Below, piece after piece: positions 7,102-28,528 of a stretch of DNA of 30,087 nucleotides (position 1 is its first letter; every line of letters begins with the position of its first letter). This DNA comes from a virus. The notes under the pieces are model-generated. The model did not search any database and was not told where the DNA came from. It worked only from the letters and a program-made list of their open reading frames with translations. The DNA lies in IMG/VR virus record IMGVR_UViG_3300031774_000090, positions 1-30,087 of that record; one strand, written 5' to 3'. The translations under genes were made by a program, and so were the position numbers.

Positions 7102-7479
7102 TTATATGTCTTGTAATCCCGTTTCGCGATTCAAATATTTATATTCAATTTTGTGAATATCAAAATCTTCCATGATTTTCTTACAAATGTCTGTGTGATT
7201 GAATTCTCCACAACTATAAACATCAAATTGCATTAATGCTGGATGTGGTTCATCCCAAATATGCATGGCAATGTGTGAAGTTTCTATAACAGCTACTGCA
7301 GTAATACCTTTATTGCCTGGCATACTACAATACTTAACGTAAGGACCCATAAATATTTTCATATTTATAGACTCAACAAACTCTGTCATCCATTCTTTTA
7401 ATTGTTCTTCGTCGGTCGGAGGTTTTACAGCTTCGGCACGTATAATAAGATGCTTATGCACCAACAAACTGTTTTGCAT
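7102..7479 (-). CDS. speD: S-adenosylmethionine decarboxylase proenzyme (pyruvoyl type, bacterial SpeD/SpeH-like)
   Basis: This 125-residue protein matches the short bacterial AdoMet decarboxylases. The enzyme makes decarboxylated AdoMet, the aminopropyl donor for spermidine. It self-cleaves before a serine that becomes the pyruvoyl group. Here GITAVAVIETSHIAMHIW (58-75) gives candidate pyruvoyl Ser68, His69 and His73, and FDVYSCGEF gives Cys90. The usual family motif is ESH, whereas this protein has TSH with E66 one place further back, so the scissile bond would be Thr-Ser. It is an auxiliary metabolic gene also known from some marine phages. It is the last gene of the late operon, after holin and endolysin candidates, and may raise polyamines for DNA packaging or host upkeep. 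Confidence 0.85.
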   Translation of the reverse strand: MQNSLLVHKHLIIRAEAVKPPTDEEQLKEWMTEFVESINMKIFMGPYVKYCSMPGNKGITAVAVIETSHIAMHIWDEPHPALMQFDVYSCGEFNHTDICKKIMEDFDIHKIEYKYLNRETGLQDI

Positions 7480-19896: not shown

Positions 19897-20664
19897 CTAT
19901 GTATTATTTGATTTTTGAATCCAACCTTTACCTGCAATATTAGTATATATTAAAGTAACAGATTGATTGTTTGTTTGTAAATCTAAGTTAGCAGTAAGAT
20001 TTTGATATTTTAAACCATTAAAATTAACAGCACATTTATTAGTTGCAAATCCATTTGCAGCTGAAGCATCCATAATAGTTATTTCATCTCCTGCGACTGC
20101 GGCTGCAGGTAGTGTTATTGTTACCTGATTGTTTTGAGTATCTACAAAAATTTGATCTCCCGCTACAGCTGTGTATGCAGTTACAGTTGCGGAATCTATA
20201 GAAACATGTCCTTTTTTTAAAATTCCACCTAAAGTAGTTAAAGGAGTAGCTCCATTAGAAACTAATAACATATTAGCTTTTTGAGGAACAGGTACATTAG
20301 AAGCTGCTCCTGTAGTTAAAACTTCTAAAGTAAAAAGATCAGTAGCCGAAGCTCCTCTTGTAGTAGCGTCTTCAATTATGTAAACTCTTGTAGCTGTTCC
20401 GCCTGTAGTCGATGCAGGCATTGTTAAAGTTGTATTACCAGTTAAAGTACCAGTTAATTTTAAATATAAATGTTTACCATCCGCGGTCGACGATCCGTCG
20501 GCTAAACTTAAAGTTTGAGTAGTACCTGTAATAGGAACTTCTAGAAAAGCAGTAGCTGCTTCTAAAACTTGTAAATTAGTATTATTAATTGATCCCCATA
20601 GACCAGCTTTTTCACCGGTTGCTACAAGTTCTAATGATAAATCTGTTGAATAAGTTGATGCCAT
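19897..20664 (-). CDS. Tail fibre-like protein sharing a module with the three adhesins
   Basis: This 255-residue protein starts ASTYSTDLSLELVATGEKAG, then LWGSINNTNLQVLE, an opening common to marine phage tail proteins. Residues about 100-140 form a second beta region. The C-terminal part (about 160-252) has YTAVAGDQIFVDTQNNQVTI, then TLPAAAVAGDEITIMDA and QSVTLIYTNIAGKGWIQKS. The same module with the same spacing occurs before the glycine-rich domain of the 477-, 495- and 485-aa proteins. A tail fibre or fibre-attachment role is likely. It lies 10 nt before the 745-aa gene and 1 nt after the 159-aa gene. Confidence 0.7.
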   Translation of the reverse strand: MASTYSTDLSLELVATGEKAGLWGSINNTNLQVLEAATAFLEVPITGTTQTLSLADGSSTADGKHLYLKLTGTLTGNTTLTMPASTTGGTATRVYIIEDATTRGASATDLFTLEVLTTGAASNVPVPQKANMLLVSNGATPLTTLGGILKKGHVSIDSATVTAYTAVAGDQIFVDTQNNQVTITLPAAAVAGDEITIMDASAANGFATNKCAVNFNGLKYQNLTANLDLQTNNQSVTLIYTNIAGKGWIQKSNNT

Positions 20665-21210: not shown

Positions 21211-21867
21211 TCATCGTTTAAACCAAGATGGAAGACCTAAATGAGGACGCTTATCAAACATATTATCTTTAGCTCCCGGAGTTTTACGGTTATTGTAGTG
21301 AAGAAATACTTGTATACATTCTTTCCCTTTAAATTTTTCTCTCCAATGTTCTAGTTCACAGCCAGAATAAACTAGCATATCGCCTTGTTTTAAATCTATT
21401 TTAATACCTTTGGCTTGGCTAGTAGTAGTTATTTTTTTACCATCGGGTATCCCTACATTTTCATTTGGACTTAAATATATAGGCCAGTCATCACCACCAA
21501 GATTCATAGTAGTTGATATTTCACAACTAAATCTATCTTTGTGTCTTTTAAGTTCATCTCCTTTTTTATATATCCTTGCATAAGTATAAGCTGGATATAA
21601 TTTTAATCCTGTTGCTTTTTCCATAGCTGGTTGACATTTAAGCATCAAAGTTTCCATAGCCATATTTGCATATTGAGAATATGTGTTTGGTATTTGACCA
21701 TCTGGTTCTTCATATTGTCCAAGAATATTTTCAAAAGGTGAAAAGTATCTAGTTTGTTTACAAGTATCATAAACTTGTTTTTGCATTAAAAAATAGTTTG
21801 CAACAAAACCTGCTAAGTCTTGTGATATTGCTTGACGAATAACTGTATACTTTTTCTTTTTAAACAT
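21211..21867 (-). CDS. Fe(II)/2-oxoglutarate oxygenase-like protein (oxygenase 1)
   Basis: This 218-residue protein has the facial triad expected for a non-haem Fe(II)/2OG dioxygenase: H109-K-D111 in DELKRHKDRFS and H174 in SGCELEHW. Core strands are EISTTMNLGGDDWPIYL, IDLKQGDMLVYSG and IQVFLHYNN. The residue that would hold the 2-oxoglutarate tail is not clear, and K183 or R194 are candidates. Such enzymes hydroxylate proteins, nucleic acids or small molecules, and the substrate here is unknown. It overlaps oxygenase 2 by 8 nt and is the last gene of a four-gene run before the long hairpin. Confidence 0.85.
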   Translation of the reverse strand: MFKKKKYTVIRQAISQDLAGFVANYFLMQKQVYDTCKQTRYFSPFENILGQYEEPDGQIPNTYSQYANMAMETLMLKCQPAMEKATGLKLYPAYTYARIYKKGDELKRHKDRFSCEISTTMNLGGDDWPIYLSPNENVGIPDGKKITTTSQAKGIKIDLKQGDMLVYSGCELEHWREKFKGKECIQVFLHYNNRKTPGAKDNMFDKRPHLGLPSWFKR

Positions 21868-22495
21868 CTTTAGCCATATCTTTTAACACCGCTGATATAT
21901 TAAAATGAATAAATCTAAAAGGAGCTTTACCATAGTCAACAGAAAATTCGTGTTCTAGATATCCAGGAAAAAACATAAGCAATCCTGGTTCAGGTTTAAA
22001 ATGAATTAATTCTGTTCCGGGCCATACTCCTTTTTGAGGTTTCATATGTAATTTAGTTGTTCTTGCACCGGTTCTCGGTTCGTGAAAAATGGGATAAGAA
22101 GTCTTCTCACTAGCTTTTAAAAAATAAAAACCATTGACGTGAGTGTTCCAATGAATGTGTGCATTATGATGACCACCACCTTTTTTCGCAAACTCTTGTA
22201 CCCACATTTGTTCAAAGAAAGTAGTATATTTACTCATATCAAATCCTGAGTGATCTAAAAACTCCCAACATTTTTGACCAACATAATTTCTAAAATCCAT
22301 AAACTTAGTATCACTCATTAATTGCGTTGAGTGCCACGCTCGACCAAAGTCGCCGTGGGCTTTAAGATGTGCTTTACCTTCTTTACTCTTTCGTGCTTCT
22401 TTAATATATGGATCAGATGCTTTGTTTAAAGATTTAACAAAGTCTGGTTTTGTTTCTGTCCATACAGGTGTTACAAAATAATTATTTATATACAT
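21860..22495 (-). CDS. Fe(II)/2-oxoglutarate oxygenase-like protein (oxygenase 2)
   Basis: This 211-residue protein starts at the ATG 22495-22493, one nucleotide after the stop of the gene before. An in-frame TTG at 22531 would give a 35-nt overlap and is rejected, because homologous proteins begin near the YFVTPVW motif. Metal ligands are in HHNAHIHWNTHVNGFYFL and YLEHEFSV, followed by FRFIHFN, which supplies a likely 2OG-binding arginine about 12 residues after the distal histidine. The layout fits the putative 2OG-Fe(II) oxygenase family whose members start with a TPVW motif (PF13759 type). The substrate is unknown. Confidence 0.83.
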   Translation of the reverse strand: MYINNYFVTPVWTETKPDFVKSLNKASDPYIKEARKSKEGKAHLKAHGDFGRAWHSTQLMSDTKFMDFRNYVGQKCWEFLDHSGFDMSKYTTFFEQMWVQEFAKKGGGHHNAHIHWNTHVNGFYFLKASEKTSYPIFHEPRTGARTTKLHMKPQKGVWPGTELIHFKPEPGLLMFFPGYLEHEFSVDYGKAPFRFIHFNISAVLKDMAKDV

Positions 22496-22496
22496 A

Positions 22497-23132
22497 CTAT
22501 TTAAATGGATATCCCAAATGCCATACGACAAGTGAATATCGTGTTCCTCTCGTTACTGGTTTAACTCTATGCCACAAATGTGAAGGAAATACTACGATAG
22601 AGCCTTTAGGTAATATTTCAGGTACGCTTCTTATATGTTTAGTTTCATCTCTCATATGAGGATCATAATTTCTAAAATCAAATTCTAATTCTCCGCCTGT
22701 GTATTCGGACCCATCTGTTAATTGACAGGTCATAGATAGTTTTCTAACTTTACCATTATCTGGATCACCTTCTTTTCTTTGATAAGGTTTGTCCCAAGGA
22801 TCCGTATGCCAATCATAATATTGATTTAATTTATATTTTGTAAACTGACAAGACTCTGATCTATCCCACTGAAAATTCCATCCAGCATTTTTATTAGCCA
22901 TATGAACATATGGATGTATTTCTTTATAAATCCACGTATCATCTAACCACACTAAATCAGAATTTCTTTTTCTTTTTAAATCTAATACTTCTTCTTTTTT
23001 TAATTTTTTATCCCCATAACCACCCGTTCTAGCTATTACTTCTTCTTTTGATAATGCATATTTAATAACATCATCACAAAACTTAGGGGTTAAAACTCCA
23101 CTAAAATACCAAAAGTAATTAGATAGATTCAT
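22497..23132 (-). CDS. Prolyl-4-hydroxylase-like Fe(II)/2OG oxygenase (oxygenase 3)
   Basis: This 211-residue protein is the clearest oxygenase of the cluster. H109-T-D111 (QYYDWHTDPWDKP), H188 (FPSHLWHRVKPV) and R198 (GTRYSLVVWHLG) form a complete iron and 2-oxoglutarate site. The sheet EYTGGELEFDF lies between them, as in PKHD-type and prolyl-4-hydroxylase-like enzymes. The family hydroxylates prolines or other residues in proteins, among other substrates. It overlaps the motif-less relative upstream by 14 nt. Whether it acts on a phage or host protein is open, and the Gly/Pro-rich adhesins made from the same transcript are possible substrates. Confidence 0.92.
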   Translation of the reverse strand: MNLSNYFWYFSGVLTPKFCDDVIKYALSKEEVIARTGGYGDKKLKKEEVLDLKRKRNSDLVWLDDTWIYKEIHPYVHMANKNAGWNFQWDRSESCQFTKYKLNQYYDWHTDPWDKPYQRKEGDPDNGKVRKLSMTCQLTDGSEYTGGELEFDFRNYDPHMRDETKHIRSVPEILPKGSIVVFPSHLWHRVKPVTRGTRYSLVVWHLGYPFK

Positions 23133-23622
23133 AAGCTGTAGTTAAAATAAAGTTTAAAGAGTCTTTTTGATTGTTAGTTATGTAATACATCTGTGTAGAG
23201 GGAAACATAATAAAATCATTATTTGCTAAAGGTATGTCCCAACTTCTTCCTGCTCTTCTATTAGAATTATAATGTATTCTAACACTACAATCTTTAACAT
23301 TTACTCCATAAAGAAAAGTATAATCAGGAGAATTTCTAAGGTCTACTGGATCAATATTTAATAAAGGAATAGAAACTTCTTTGGGTTTATAAGTATTTCC
23401 CCACGTTTCTTTATTTACTAAAGTAAAACCGTGTTCTAGATTTATATGCTCTCGCATATATGTATTTAACATATCCCAGGTTCTTGAGAATGGAAATTTA
23501 GAATTTTTAATTTGTGATGATAAAATATCTTTTTGAAGTTTGTCTCGATCTATTTCGAAACCTTTAGGCATATTAATAGTGCCATAATGTAAATCTATTT
23601 CAGATAATACTTTCTTGTGCAT
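23119..23622 (-). CDS. Possible oxygenase-fold protein lacking the iron-binding motif
   Basis: This 167-residue protein is of uncertain function. The C-terminal strand pattern is GRSWDIPLANNDFIMFPS, then TQMYYITNNQKDSLNFIL. It lines up with the end of 2OG oxygenases (KGSIVVFPSHLWH, then GTRYSLVVWH in oxygenase 3). However, tyrosine 146 stands where the distal histidine should be, leucine takes the place of the arginine, and no HxD is present. It therefore looks like a double-stranded beta-helix protein without catalytic residues, or an unrelated beta protein. It overlaps oxygenase 3 by 14 nt and may serve as a partner or regulatory subunit. Confidence 0.6.
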   Translation of the reverse strand: MHKKVLSEIDLHYGTINMPKGFEIDRDKLQKDILSSQIKNSKFPFSRTWDMLNTYMREHINLEHGFTLVNKETWGNTYKPKEVSIPLLNIDPVDLRNSPDYTFLYGVNVKDCSVRIHYNSNRRAGRSWDIPLANNDFIMFPSTQMYYITNNQKDSLNFILTTAYESI

Positions 23623-23640
23623 ACCACATACCTTTTTAAT

Positions 23641-24096
23641 TTATGCGTTGTTATCTGTCAAGTCCCAAGACTGGCCTGATTCATTCCACTTATAACCCCA
23701 AGAATGTGTGCCAGCTTCGTTTTGTGAAGTTTGTTCTGCAGTTAATGCTGGAGCTGCACCTATAGGTGAGTCCCAACTAGCAGTTGTAGTATTTTTTACC
23801 CAAGATGCAAAAGGTTTTTGAGGCCAGAAGATTTGATTATCTTCGTCCCAAGTATAACCTATACCTGCATAGTTTCCTCTTAATGCTTTTGAGTTATCAC
23901 CAGATTTATGTTGATTATTATATGTATTGTATGAAGTTTGAATCCACATTGGAGCAGGCCAATTATTATGTCTCTCTAAATATTGTTGTCCTACTGATTC
24001 ATCTTCAACGCCATCAGCATTTTTCATATCATTGTTACCACAAGTTAATACTCCGATAACTTTTCCATTCATTCCTATTTTTGCAAAGTGTGCCAT
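23641..24096 (-). CDS. Tryptophan-rich tail-associated protein common in marine phages
   Basis: This 151-residue protein starts AHFAKIGMNGKVIGVLTCG and contains PMWIQTSYNTYNNQHK, then RGNYAGIGYTWDED, then FWPQKPFASWVKNTTTASW. Tryptophans recur at short intervals, and the protein ends WGYKWNESGQSWDLTDN. The QTSYNT, then NYAGIGYTYD or TWDE pattern is widespread in marine myo- and podoviruses near tail fibre genes. Function is unproven, and a structural or carbohydrate-binding role is plausible. A strong AAGGAG ribosome site lies just before the ATG at 24096, which suits a well-expressed virion component. It sits between the adhesins and the oxygenases. Confidence 0.75.
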   Translation of the reverse strand: MAHFAKIGMNGKVIGVLTCGNNDMKNADGVEDESVGQQYLERHNNWPAPMWIQTSYNTYNNQHKSGDNSKALRGNYAGIGYTWDEDNQIFWPQKPFASWVKNTTTASWDSPIGAAPALTAEQTSQNEAGTHSWGYKWNESGQSWDLTDNNA

Positions 24097-24144
24097 ATGT
24101 TTCTCCTTATATATTAATTTTAAAGTTGTGTAAATGCATAAATA

Positions 24145-25578
24145 TTATTGATATTTATATCTTATAATTACTATTCCCGATCCACCATTTCCGCCAGGCT
24201 GTGTACTAGCACTACAGCCACCACCACCTCCGCCACCAGCACCAAGATTGACCGTTCCTGCGGTTCCGGGACTAGCTGGAGCTTTTCCATTACCACCAGT
24301 TCCACCACCACCTGTTCCACCAGTTCCTGGAGCGCCAGATGCGGGATCCCATCTACGACCGCCACCGCCTCCACCACCATAAACAATTGCTGCTGTAGAA
24401 ATACTTGTTGTAGCACCGTCTCCTCCATCACCAGCTGCACCTGGTCCTGGATAATTTTCTCCATTGTCACCTGCATCAGTTGCACCACCACCTCCGCCAC
24501 CATTTTGAGCTAAAGCTGAACTACACGATACGTTGGCTGTTCCTCCATTTGTTCCTTGTGCTGGAGTTGTTGGAGGTGTATTTCCTGTTCCTGCACCACA
24601 TCCACCAATAGGAGCTGTATAACCGTGACCGCCTCCACCAGATCCACCATTTCCTCCTGGAGTTCCTGCACCACAATAAGGACTGGCTCCAAATCCACCT
24701 GTACCACCACCCGCCGAAGTAATTGATGAAAATACTGAAGCATCTCCTGCAGTTGGTGTTGAACCTGCTACATTAGCAGTTCCGCCACCTCCTACTGTAA
24801 TTGGATAAGCTGTTTGTGACACTGTTACTCTATTTCCTGGAGTGGGATAACCATCTAAAGGGCTTGCTGTATAAGGGTTAAGGGGGTTTTTTACTTCTCT
24901 AAATCCGCCTGCACCGCCTCCACCTGCTCCACCTTCCTTACTTCCACCACCGCCGCCACCACCAGCAACTACCATATATGAAACTACATTTCTACTAGAA
25001 CAACCTGCTACTGTACATACTGTAAAAGTTCCTGGTCCTATAAATTTATGAATTTTGTCATTACCACAAGTACTAATACAGCCACCTGATGCTGCCATAA
25101 ATTCAGCGCCTCTAACATTAGAAGTTGAATCTAAAACGTTAATCCAACCTTGAACGGCATCTATATAAACAAATTGAACGGATTGTCCTTCTGTATTTAA
25201 ACCTACATCGGATGCAACTCCTCCCATTTTTTCGGTGCCGTTTGGTGAAACTGTTACAGCATATGTTTGCCAAGTTCCTGCATAATCTGCAAAAGCTACT
25301 GAACTTCCAGGAGCACCTGCTGGTAAATTAACTGTTATAGTTCCAGCTGTTGTATTTAAAAAATAACCTACACCAGCTGTTGCTGTAAAACCTGAATCTG
25401 AATTTGTTTTAACTGTAGTATCCCACGAAATTTCTCCTGTTCCACCAAATCCTGCAGCAGTTCCTAAATTAGAAATTGTTACACCTGAAGGAATTGTGAA
25501 TGTATCTCCACTATCTCCTAATGTGGTTGTACCACACGCTGTTCTTGGACTAATTTTATTTACTTTTATTTCACTCAT
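24145..25578 (-). CDS. Glycine-rich tail adhesin, paralogue 1
   Basis: This 477-residue protein starts MSEIKVNKISPRTACGTTTLG. A beta module (about 60-155) contains GYFLNTTAGTITVNLPAG and GQSVQFVYIDAVQGWINV. A cysteine pair precedes KIHKFIGPGTFTV and another pair follows it. From about residue 205 to the end the sequence is polyglycine with Pro, Ser, Thr and Cys, including GAGGFREVKNPLNPYTASP, and it ends SGIVIIRYKYQ. The last block matches the glycine-rich domain of phage adhesins and fibre tips. By analogy it may form bundles of polyglycine II helices that bind the host. It is the last of three tandem paralogues in transcription order. Confidence 0.85.
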   Translation of the reverse strand: MSEIKVNKISPRTACGTTTLGDSGDTFTIPSGVTISNLGTAAGFGGTGEISWDTTVKTNSDSGFTATAGVGYFLNTTAGTITVNLPAGAPGSSVAFADYAGTWQTYAVTVSPNGTEKMGGVASDVGLNTEGQSVQFVYIDAVQGWINVLDSTSNVRGAEFMAASGGCISTCGNDKIHKFIGPGTFTVCTVAGCSSRNVVSYMVVAGGGGGGGSKEGGAGGGGAGGFREVKNPLNPYTASPLDGYPTPGNRVTVSQTAYPITVGGGGTANVAGSTPTAGDASVFSSITSAGGGTGGFGASPYCGAGTPGGNGGSGGGGHGYTAPIGGCGAGTGNTPPTTPAQGTNGGTANVSCSSALAQNGGGGGGATDAGDNGENYPGPGAAGDGGDGATTSISTAAIVYGGGGGGGRRWDPASGAPGTGGTGGGGTGGNGKAPASPGTAGTVNLGAGGGGGGGCSASTQPGGNGGSGIVIIRYKYQ

Positions 25579-25580
25579 AA

Positions 25581-27068
25581 TTATTGTCTTTTATATCTTA
25601 TTACTACTACACCTGAACCACCACTACCACCTGTACTAGAAGTTCCCACTCCAGCACCACCGCCACCACCTCTGTTTGTTGTTCCACTTTCACCATCAGC
25701 ATCTCCTCCTGATCTGACTTTTCCTGAACCACCAGTACCACAAGGACTTGCTCCACCACCAGTTCCTTGACCTGGCATTTGATTTGATCCACCGCCACCA
25801 CCAGCATAAGAAAGAGCAGAACCTGTTATAGATGTCGGAACACCAACACCTCCTGCTCCAGCTACATTAGGATTTTGACCTTGACCGCCTACATCTCCAG
25901 CGCCACCACCTCCTCCTCCGGCTCTTATTCCTGGTCCTAAAGATGGAGTTGCATTACCACCATCATTTCCTTGAGAAGGACTTGTTGCAGGGTCATTTCC
26001 ACTTCCTGCTGCCGCAGGTGGATTATTTCCTGATCCACCACCTCCAGAACCACCTGGATTTCCTGCTGTAGGACTACCTCCTGGATTACCTGAACCTCCT
26101 CCAGCTGCTGATAAACCTAATGCACTTGAAACATTTCCTGGAGATTGATTAGTTGGTGCACCACCATTAGAATTAGTTCCTGCTGCGCCACCACCCACTA
26201 CAATTGGATATGATTGTACTGAAAGAGTAATTCCTGAACAAGCTGCTGCTAAAGGACTAGCTGTATATGGAGTAATAGGATTAGTTCGACCCTCCCTAAA
26301 TCCTCCTGCTCCAGCGCCACTTGCTGATGAACCGGATCCACCATCAGCACCGCCACCACTGCCGACAATTAAGTAAGCTGCTGTATTATTAGCTGGTGTA
26401 GGAGATATAGAGGTAACTTGAAAAGTTCCTGGCGCTGTAAATGTATGAATTCTACAATTTCCTGAACAACTAATTGTTCCTCCTGTTGCTTGTATAAAAG
26501 GTGGAGTTCCTGTTTCTGTGTCCTCTGCGTTTTGAACATTAATCCAACCTTGTGTGCCATCAACATAAACTAATGTTAATGCTTGTCCTTCTATATTTAA
26601 AACTAAATCTTGTGCGATACCACCAATTTTTTCTGAACCATTTGGACTAATTGTTAATGTATTTGTTTGAAAGTTTCTTGCATAATCAGAAAAAGCTACA
26701 ATAGCTCCAGCCGATCCTGCAGGTAAATTTGCTGTAGAAGTTCCTCCATCAGTATCTACAAAATAACCTTCACCATTTACTGCTGTAAAAGTTCCTGTTT
26801 TAGGGGTTGTTACCCAATCTACAGTTCCTGTTCTACCTAAACCTACTGCTGTTCCGTTATTAGTTATAGTTGCTCCAGAGGCAATTGTAATTTGACCACC
26901 TGATTGAACTTGTATGTCTCCACCTGATTGAATTTGTTCTGTTACTCCATTAGGAATAATAACTGTATCACCATTAGCTCCTACAGTAATGTTAGCGCCA
27001 CATTTATTGATGATGTTTGAATCATCTGAAACTTTATTTATATTATCTACTTTAATTTTACTTGTCAT
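25581..27068 (-). CDS. Glycine-rich tail adhesin, paralogue 2
   Basis: This 495-residue protein starts MTSKIKVDNINKVSDDSNII. It has a longer N-terminal region than its relatives, with a near-repeat QIQSGGDIQVQSGGQITIAS. The beta module follows (GYFVDTDGGTSTANLPAG, then GQALTLVYVDGTQGWINV). The C-C pair before RIHTFTAPGTFQV is present, but the second pair found in the other two is missing. The polyglycine part carries GAGGFREGRTNPITPYTASP and ATSPSQGNDGG, and the end is SGVVVIRYKRQ. A fibre or adhesin role is inferred from the family. The ATG lies 2 nt downstream of the stop of paralogue 3. Confidence 0.85.
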   Translation of the reverse strand: MTSKIKVDNINKVSDDSNIINKCGANITVGANGDTVIIPNGVTEQIQSGGDIQVQSGGQITIASGATITNNGTAVGLGRTGTVDWVTTPKTGTFTAVNGEGYFVDTDGGTSTANLPAGSAGAIVAFSDYARNFQTNTLTISPNGSEKIGGIAQDLVLNIEGQALTLVYVDGTQGWINVQNAEDTETGTPPFIQATGGTISCSGNCRIHTFTAPGTFQVTSISPTPANNTAAYLIVGSGGGADGGSGSSASGAGAGGFREGRTNPITPYTASPLAAACSGITLSVQSYPIVVGGGAAGTNSNGGAPTNQSPGNVSSALGLSAAGGGSGNPGGSPTAGNPGGSGGGGSGNNPPAAAGSGNDPATSPSQGNDGGNATPSLGPGIRAGGGGGGAGDVGGQGQNPNVAGAGGVGVPTSITGSALSYAGGGGGSNQMPGQGTGGGASPCGTGGSGKVRSGGDADGESGTTNRGGGGGAGVGTSSTGGSGGSGVVVIRYKRQ

Positions 27069-27070
27069 AA

Positions 27071-28528
27071 TTATTGAAATTTATACCTTATTATTACTAT
27101 ACCTGACCCACCGCCACCACCTAATTTATATGTACCAGTTGGACCCGAAGAACCACCTCCGCCTCCACCACCTAAACCAGCTGTTCCGGCTGTTGCAGGA
27201 GTTGGACCACAGTTTCCTGTTCCAGCTCCACCACCACCTGTTCCACCTGCACTTTGTTGTGTACCAGAACTTCCGCCTCCTCCACCTCCAGCGTAAGCTG
27301 TTGGTGATGCTGAAATTTCTGTTGTAACTCCATTTCCACCTACTATTCCTGTTGTACTACAGCTAGGTGCAGCTCCTCCGGCAGCGCCTGCGCCACCACC
27401 TGCACCTCCGTATCCAGCTGTACCACCTGGATTTCCTTGAGAAGGAGATGTTGCGGGAGTATTTCCTGTACCACCTAAATCTGGTCTTTGAGGAGCAGAA
27501 TTTGTTCCACCACCACCTGAACCGCCTGGTTGGCCTGCTCTTCCTCCTACTGGACCTGATGGACTTCCTGGACCAGAACAATCTCTTGATCCGCCACCAC
27601 CACCTCCAGTAGCTACTATAGTATCAAAAATTGAAGGAGTTCCATTTCCTCCTGGATTAGCATCACAAGGCGATGCAGCTCCTCCACCACCTGCTTGAAT
27701 TGGATATCCTTGAACTGAAACTGTAATTCTATTTCCGGGAGTTGGATAGCCACACAAAGGACTGGTTGTATAACCTGTTGCTTGTGGACTTTTAGCTTCT
27801 CTAAAACCACCAGCTCCGGCTCCACCCGCATAATATGATGTACCACCAGCTCCACCACCAGCTACCACCATATAAGAAACTTCATTTTGTGCTGAGCACG
27901 GTGAAAGTCCTGAAACACAAAAAGTTCCTGGATTTACAAAAGTTGCAATTTTAGCATTAGCACAATCTGGTGCTGTAACTAAAGTATTACACGCGCCACT
28001 AACAGTAGCAGAAACAAAAGGAGGGGCTCCTCTAACATTAGATGTTGAGTCCATAGTATTAATCCATCCTTGTGTTGTATCTACATATACAAAAGTTACT
28101 GATTGACCTTTAGTAGACAGTGTTGCACTTTCATTTCGAGAACCAATTTTATCGGTACCATTTGGAACAACCGTAACAGCCAATGAATCCCAAGTAGCTG
28201 CGTAATCCGCCATAGAAATTATATCTCCAGCAGAACCTGCTGGTAAATTAAATGTTATTACGCCTGCTGTTGTATTTAAAAAATATCCTTTTCCGGAAAC
28301 TCCTGTAACAGGAGAATCTCCTGTAGCATATGGAGTTGTGATCCAATCAACAGTTCCTGTTCTACCAAATCCTGATTGAGTTGCTCCTGAAGCTAGTGAA
28401 ACTGTACCACCACAACGACCTAAAGTTACTGTCGTTGCATCTACTACTGCAGTTTTACAAGCTCCACCACCAACTGTTAAAGTTGTGCCGGATTGTTGTG
28501 TTACCTGATCTACTTCTACTTTACTCAT
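27071..28528 (-). CDS. Glycine-rich tail adhesin, paralogue 3
   Basis: This 485-residue protein starts MSKVEVDQVTQQSGTTLTVG. The shared beta module includes GYFLNTTAGVITFNLPAG and GQSVTFVYVDTTQGWINT. Two cysteine pairs flank KIATFVNPGTF. The glycine-rich part includes GAGGFREAKSPQATGYTTSP and ATSPSQGNPGG, and the end is SGIVIIRYKFQ. Additional single cysteines lie within the polyglycine part. The ATG overlaps the stop of the 58-aa gene (TAATG at 28528), so the small protein and this adhesin are probably co-made. The adhesin role is inferred from the conserved C-terminal block. Confidence 0.85.
   Translation of the reverse strand: MSKVEVDQVTQQSGTTLTVGGGACKTAVVDATTVTLGRCGGTVSLASGATQSGFGRTGTVDWITTPYATGDSPVTGVSGKGYFLNTTAGVITFNLPAGSAGDIISMADYAATWDSLAVTVVPNGTDKIGSRNESATLSTKGQSVTFVYVDTTQGWINTMDSTSNVRGAPPFVSATVSGACNTLVTAPDCANAKIATFVNPGTFCVSGLSPCSAQNEVSYMVVAGGGAGGTSYYAGGAGAGGFREAKSPQATGYTTSPLCGYPTPGNRITVSVQGYPIQAGGGGAASPCDANPGGNGTPSIFDTIVATGGGGGGSRDCSGPGSPSGPVGGRAGQPGGSGGGGTNSAPQRPDLGGTGNTPATSPSQGNPGGTAGYGGAGGGAGAAGGAAPSCSTTGIVGGNGVTTEISASPTAYAGGGGGGSSGTQQSAGGTGGGGAGTGNCGPTPATAGTAGLGGGGGGGSSGPTGTYKLGGGGGSGIVIIRYKFQ

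Follow-up and report, generated by a model that had tools for sequence, protein, structure and literature searches.

The stretch of DNA analysed here (the window) comprises the 30,087 bases of an IMG/VR virus record and represents an HTVC023P-type pelagiphage contig, with phage 023Pt_psg01 and HTVC023P as relatives and HTVC033P as a more distant one. On its minus strand, three genes for Gly-rich adhesins (G1, G2, and G3) are followed by P5, P4, P1, P2, and P3, and then by further structural genes (Table 1). An earlier note had described a run of three adhesin and four oxygenase genes at this place, and all eight genes were confirmed on the minus strand, as were the tight oxygenase junctions that it gave, i.e., a 14-nt overlap between P4 and P1, an 8-nt overlap between P2 and P3, and a 1-nt gap between P1 and P2, the last of which assumes that P2 starts at ATG 22495 and that TTG 22531 is a mechanical start only. 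P2 homologues in 023Pt and HTVC023P begin at the same Met as ATG 22495. On the adhesin side, the intervals are 2 nt (G1-G2), 2 nt (G2-G3), 48 nt (G3-P5), and 18 nt (P5-P4). The minus strand from 21211 to 27632 showed no terminator-like site, two such sites fall within the G1 coding sequence, and we infer that all eight genes form one operon.

Table 1. Features of the adhesin and oxygenase cassette in the window
Feature	Coordinates	Strand	Match or basis
G1, Gly-rich adhesin, 485 aa, 31 Pro	27071..28528	-	PF21722
G2, Gly-rich adhesin, 495 aa, 28 Pro	25581..27068	-	PF21722
G3, Gly-rich adhesin, 477 aa, 26 Pro	24145..25578	-	PF21722
G3 residues 44-146, attachment domain common to T4 gp10 and a tailspike	25141..25449	-	
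G1 proline motif NTPATSPSQGNPGG, proposed hydroxylation site	27422..27463	-	
G2 proline motif NDPATSPSQGNDGG, proposed hydroxylation site	25956..25997	-	
G3 proline motif NTPPTTPAQGTNGG, proposed hydroxylation site	24541..24582	-	
P5, adhesin companion	23641..24096	-	phrog_7759, MAHFA family
P4, putative pseudo-oxygenase, 2OG fold without metal motif	23119..23622	-	predicted fold
P1, 2OG oxygenase, HxD...H...RxS	22497..23132	-	PF13640, phrog_61
P2, 2OG oxygenase family, HxH...H, start ATG 22495	21860..22495	-	PF13759
P3, "ferrochelatase" phrog_2954, predicted 2OG oxygenase, HxD...HWR	21211..21867	-	motif and predicted fold

All three adhesins match Gly_rich_2 (PF21722) with E values of 1e-12 to 4e-17 and scores of 49 to 64 bits, above the cut-off of 24.3. 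Residues 44-146 of G3 also match T4 gp10 and a tailspike, and G1-G3 are therefore most likely virion attachment proteins; this domain and the place of the genes among tail genes suggest that the adhesins sit on the virion tail and bind a host receptor. No collagen-like G-X-Y repeat was seen on reading the three sequences. For P5, the only matches were to phrog_7759 (function unknown) and, below threshold, to Pfam, and a search for solved relatives found none. A Gly-rich ORF precedes P5 in 383 of 415 cases, and the pair also occurs without an adjoining cassette, in HTVC025P, CRP-143, CRP-207, phiPsal1, zth2-2, MW202674, and Melnitz. Downstream of the cassette (19897-20664, minus strand), a 255-aa protein matches the N-terminal part (residues 1-118) of phrog_31104, the C-terminal part of which matches the adhesins; the 255-aa protein is possibly an attachment partner.

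With regard to the enzymes, the earlier note had counted three intact-looking Fe(II)/2OG motifs and one motif-less relative. The textbook HxD...H is present in P1 and P3 only and P4 is indeed motif-less, but the first motif of P2 is HxH, as in the aligned solved PF13759 proteins, and departs from the textbook triad. P1 matches PF13640 above the cut-off (triad H109, D111, and H188), and its profile matches vCPH, the collagen prolyl hydroxylase of chlorella virus PBCV-1 (5c5t; E 7.5e-4). The solved sequences nearest to P1 are PKHD-type hydroxylases. The link to the adhesins described below is strongest for P3 and not for P1, the prolyl-hydroxylase-like enzyme. P2 matches PF13759 above the cut-off. 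No Pfam or PHROG match was found for P4; its predicted structure (pLDDT 88.9) has the same 2OG fold, with Z of 13-15 to 3bvc, 2rg4, and prolyl hydroxylases and a further match to 5c5t. P4 has no conserved HxD, and an invariant Tyr146 lies near the expected position of the distal His. With a predicted 2OG fold that does not carry the metal triad, P4 would be a pseudo-oxygenase, which may act as a scaffold or regulator.

P3 is named ferrochelatase in PHROGs and GenBank. No Pfam match to it was found at E values up to 0.1, including the ferrochelatase domain PF00762, and its HxD...HWR motif is invariant across 32 sequences (H109, D111, and H174). The predicted structure (pLDDT 91.2) has a 2OG fold; the Foldseek matches listed are 2OG-superfamily chains, led by a P. 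putida prolyl-4-hydroxylase whose structure was determined with EF-Tu, with PHDs also among the best. By VIA-align, many 2OG enzymes, including many that act on small molecules, tie at Z of 14.6-16.3 (SnoN 16.3, PHD2 15.5, and P4H 15.4), and the fold therefore supports the superfamily and not a substrate. A search of the PDB gave no significant sequence match to P3 (best E 0.04, Tet-like). Given the absence of PF00762, the predicted 2OG fold, and the HxD...H motif, we rejected the ferrochelatase assignment and regard P3 as a predicted Fe(II)/2OG oxygenase.

A survey of whether such oxygenases and adhesins co-occur across marine phages, where absence would have counted against the adhesins as substrates, found a Gly-rich ORF no more than 2.5 kb upstream at 160 of the 163 oxygenase-anchored loci with enough upstream sequence, in unrelated phage types, these loci being mutually related and not 163 independent events. 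Broken down by the four oxygenase queries, the counts were 57/59, 33/33, 34/34, and 36/37. In profile searches of the first 213 sequences, the order G(1-4)-P5-P4-P1-P2-P3 was nearly constant, with space in places for additional genes. The block recurs adhesin-first in podoviruses as well as in T4-like pelagi- and cyanophages, and a similar arrangement is found in the more distant HTVC033P. The T4-like phages HTVC008M, Mosig, S-SM1, and S-RSM4 each have a single PF21722 match adjoining a 2OG cluster; in HTVC008M, the cassette is encoded on the other strand and runs convergently towards the adhesin. At loci retrieved with a cyanophage-type P1, G-P5 precedes long oxygenase runs. The module is a transferable block carried by many marine phages. 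In the sister phage HTVC027P (L538, 13093-14754), three other 2OG genes, encoded on the opposite strand, adjoin tail genes, and no Gly-rich adhesin, P5, or P3 was found in the stretch examined; not every 2OG gene here therefore serves such adhesins, and the HTVC027P paper is no guide to the timing of cassette expression, as the cassette was not found in that phage.

Phages that have the adhesin-P5 pair but not the cassette provided a control group, and the Gly-rich segments next to P5 were compared after redundancy removal (413 with and 102 without oxygenases). Proline accounted for 6.8% of residues with oxygenases versus 2.2% without and was the best discriminator among the 20 residues (AUC 0.95). 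GC content differed in the opposite direction (37% in the oxygenase-linked versus 45% in the oxygenase-free group), as did proline in other long ORFs (3.4% with versus 3.9% without oxygenases) and in P5 (4.3% versus 6.7%), which led us to reject GC or a proteome-wide proline bias as the cause. By enzyme, proline was 7.4% with P3-type genes, 3.4% with other 2OG genes only, and 2.0% in the absence of any. When the enzymes were regressed jointly, the largest coefficient was that of P3 (t 5.0), with P1, P2, and P3 largely co-occurring. At a high-proline cut of 4.5%, which was picked after the data had been seen, 170 P3-positive loci were high and seven low in proline, versus 2 and 72 P3-negative loci. 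P3 is thus the best predictor of adhesin proline among the enzymes of the cassette and, on these sequence comparisons, its likeliest prolyl hydroxylase, an assignment that is statistical because P1, P2, and P3 are almost never found apart. The P5-anchored loci include no Gly-free group, and a 2x2 test on them is therefore uninformative.

The difference in proline falls at defined positions. Anchored at QGxxGG, which is kept in both adhesin classes, the P3-positive consensus reads GNTPPVSPPQGNxGG and the P3-negative one roughly GAGGSGTSGQGNAGG; proline at positions -6, -5, and -2 before QG is found in 80, 72, and 83% of sequences with P3-type genes and in about 5% or less without. The motif is present in each of the window adhesins (Table 1). 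The proposal that the oxygenases act on the adhesins is thus strongly backed by comparison, through the co-occurrence, the proline content, and the anchored motif. The GAPGTGGTGG loop quoted at the outset differs from the motif that goes with the enzymes.

We consider it fairly probable that the cassette is a self-contained receptor-binding module in which dedicated oxygenases, chiefly P3, hydroxylate adhesin prolines. The phage would make polyglycine-rich tail adhesins, followed by the companion P5 and an adhesin-dedicated set of Fe(II)/2OG oxygenases; the reaction would take place late in infection, before virion release, and use host 2-oxoglutarate, iron, and oxygen. Within the Gly-rich domain, the GNTPPVSPPQG loop would be the main target, with P3 as the likeliest prolyl hydroxylase, P1 and P2 acting on the same adhesin, and P4 as a non-catalytic partner; the number of enzymes could reflect multiple sites, multiple residues, or consecutive steps. 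The polyproline-II conformation is favoured by 4-hydroxyproline, and hydroxyproline could stiffen polyproline/polyglycine-II segments and add hydroxyls on receptor-facing loops.

Of the alternatives, the one that survives best, although we judge it unlikely, is that the enzymes modify the adhesin or P5 at Lys, Asp, Asn, or Cys, or carry out the first step of a larger modification, and that the proline motif is only a structural feature of the type of adhesin that travels with the module. Several oxygenase families per module and up to 13 ORFs per locus suggest several sites, and Cys and Lys are 4.6-fold and 1.9-fold higher, respectively, in oxygenase-linked adhesins, an enrichment that could possibly reflect disulphides or further modification sites. 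By contrast, Asn does not differ between the adhesin classes, and it is proline that discriminates best and shifts at defined positions beside the shared QGxxGG anchor.

Distinctly improbable, in our view, is that these are auxiliary metabolic genes (AMGs) whose targets are host metabolites, 2OG level, iron/haem, or DNA and which ride in tail-fibre exchange hotspots, even though published readings favour such a role and T4-like phages also have 2OG genes far from tail genes. Sullivan et al. (2010) proposed that cyanophage 2OG genes draw down 2OG and have a part in DNA repair (PMC3037559), Wittmers et al. (2022) classed eight 2OG genes, together with the ferrochelatases that partner them, as AMGs (PMC9599517), and a 2024 time series took phrog61 and phrog2954, which were enriched in seasonal viruses, as AMGs (PMC11561400); the available parts of these three sources contain no adhesin link for these genes, while other papers or supplements may. 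The genes studied here are the same as those taken for "2OG + ferrochelatase" partner AMGs in pelagiphages (PMC9599517) and in cyanophages (PMC3037559), but unlike in that reading, in which they serve host metabolism, they are adhesin-linked here and the ferrochelatase is re-read as a 2OG oxygenase. The fold and motif of P3 are not those of a ferrochelatase, the adhesin-P5-oxygenase order is kept across phage types, and a passenger gene would not produce the covariation seen between adhesin sequence and enzymes. In the T4-like Melnitz, moreover, the 2OG genes lie far from the adhesins, there is no phrog_2954 match, and adhesin proline is 2.4-2.5%.

Relatedness among the loci was taken into account on a P5 tree, on which the P3 state changes at least 11 times, with few of these changes on supported branches. 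In independent contrasts, proline rose by 2.8 percentage points for each P3 (slope, p = 6e-4). Of the independent pairs, 10/11 agree, with many branches weakly supported and 2/11 pairs resting on contigs perhaps cut before P3; well-supported branches leave three independent pairs (on average 2.2 agree and 0 oppose), too few for significance. Shared ancestry only, i.e., one proline-rich adhesin lineage that picked up the cassette with no joint function, is the least probable reading, for although most loci are related, the contrasts and pairs still agree, and the pairs span phages of the same host species (HTVC025P versus HTVC023P-type) and have T4-likes on both sides. HTVC025P was isolated on HTCC1062, its adhesin is low in proline, and a cassette was not found in it.

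Apparent exceptions were also followed up. Bellamy was first scored as oxygenase-free with 7.7% proline, the fetched stretch ending at 46,611; a search of the whole record found phrog_2954 at 48,431-49,087 and PF13640 matches at 47,388-48,323, so that this apparent exception is an overlooked cassette and the prediction held. Whole-record searches of the 72 apparently cassette-free records, many of which are fragments, found phrog_2954 in Bellamy only and PF13640 in Bellamy, Melnitz, and one 104-kb contig only, other 2OG families being sought in the fetched stretch. The other two high-proline oxygenase-free outliers (L507 and L436), in whose records no PF13640 or phrog_2954 was found, owe their proline to GPT or GPQ/GIQ repeats of collagen-like type, which lie outside the Gly-rich domain; the proline motif is absent from that domain. 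A collagen-like substrate was rejected, as reading of G1-G3 showed no G-X-Y repeat and these repeat-bearing outliers are oxygenase-free. The loci themselves (L507:3809-7736 and L436:3646-5988) encode collagen-like tail proteins, some fused to a Gly-rich domain.

In the gp38 adhesin of Salmonella phage S16, polyglycine-II helices resemble polyproline-II and variable loops have been proposed to bind the receptor (PMC6851490). The adhesins described here are like this polyglycine-sandwich protein in having a glycine-rich receptor-binding domain, a likeness that is putative, but differ from it in that the PF21722 domain is part of a protein of about 480 aa with a gp10-like domain and proline motifs. 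S16 gp38 has no oxygenase link that we know of. P3 is predicted to share a 2OG fold of about 200 residues with the HIF prolyl hydroxylase PHD2 and with the P. putida prolyl-4-hydroxylase that acts on EF-Tu (4iw3 and 4j25), both of which hydroxylate Pro in a folded protein, but identity is only 10-18% and other 2OG enzymes fit equally by VIA-align. vCPH, matched by the P1 profile and the P4 model, is likewise virus-encoded and carries out prolyl hydroxylation, but its virus is eukaryotic and its substrate collagen-like. A literature search for tail-fibre hydroxylation by phage oxygenases found no description among the papers listed. Protein prolyl hydroxylation and virus-encoded prolyl hydroxylases are already known; phage receptor-binding proteins matured by hydroxylation would, to our knowledge, be new.

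If these genes edit adhesins, the metabolic-manipulation readings of phage 2OG and "ferrochelatase" genes would change, at least one protein-family name would need correction, and the long-standing question of the role of the many phage 2OG oxygenases would come down to one mass-spectrometry experiment on a named peptide. A broader version, which we put forward only tentatively and think doubtful as a whole, is that, in a horizontally exchanged module, arrays of distinct oxygenases with their pseudo-oxygenase write a hydroxylation pattern on polyglycine adhesin tips, that marine phages diversify receptor recognition through their set of enzymes in addition to sequence, and that the "ferrochelatase" genes taken as metabolic markers in ocean viromics are adhesin prolyl hydroxylases.

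Further observations concern other genes at these loci. In five T4-like loci (L242, L225, L216, L217, and L006), one Gly-rich adhesin and P5 are followed by between 11 and 13 oxygenase-family ORFs, most of them arranged in tandem. Genes labelled "DNA endonuclease V" within cassettes (L001:7722-8204, L006:15249-15737, and L007:14219-14698) link by profile to 2OG families, and this label is probably a second misannotation. Elsewhere in the window (7102-7479, minus strand), an S-adenosylmethionine decarboxylase-like gene (phrog_3125) adjoins the endolysin gene.
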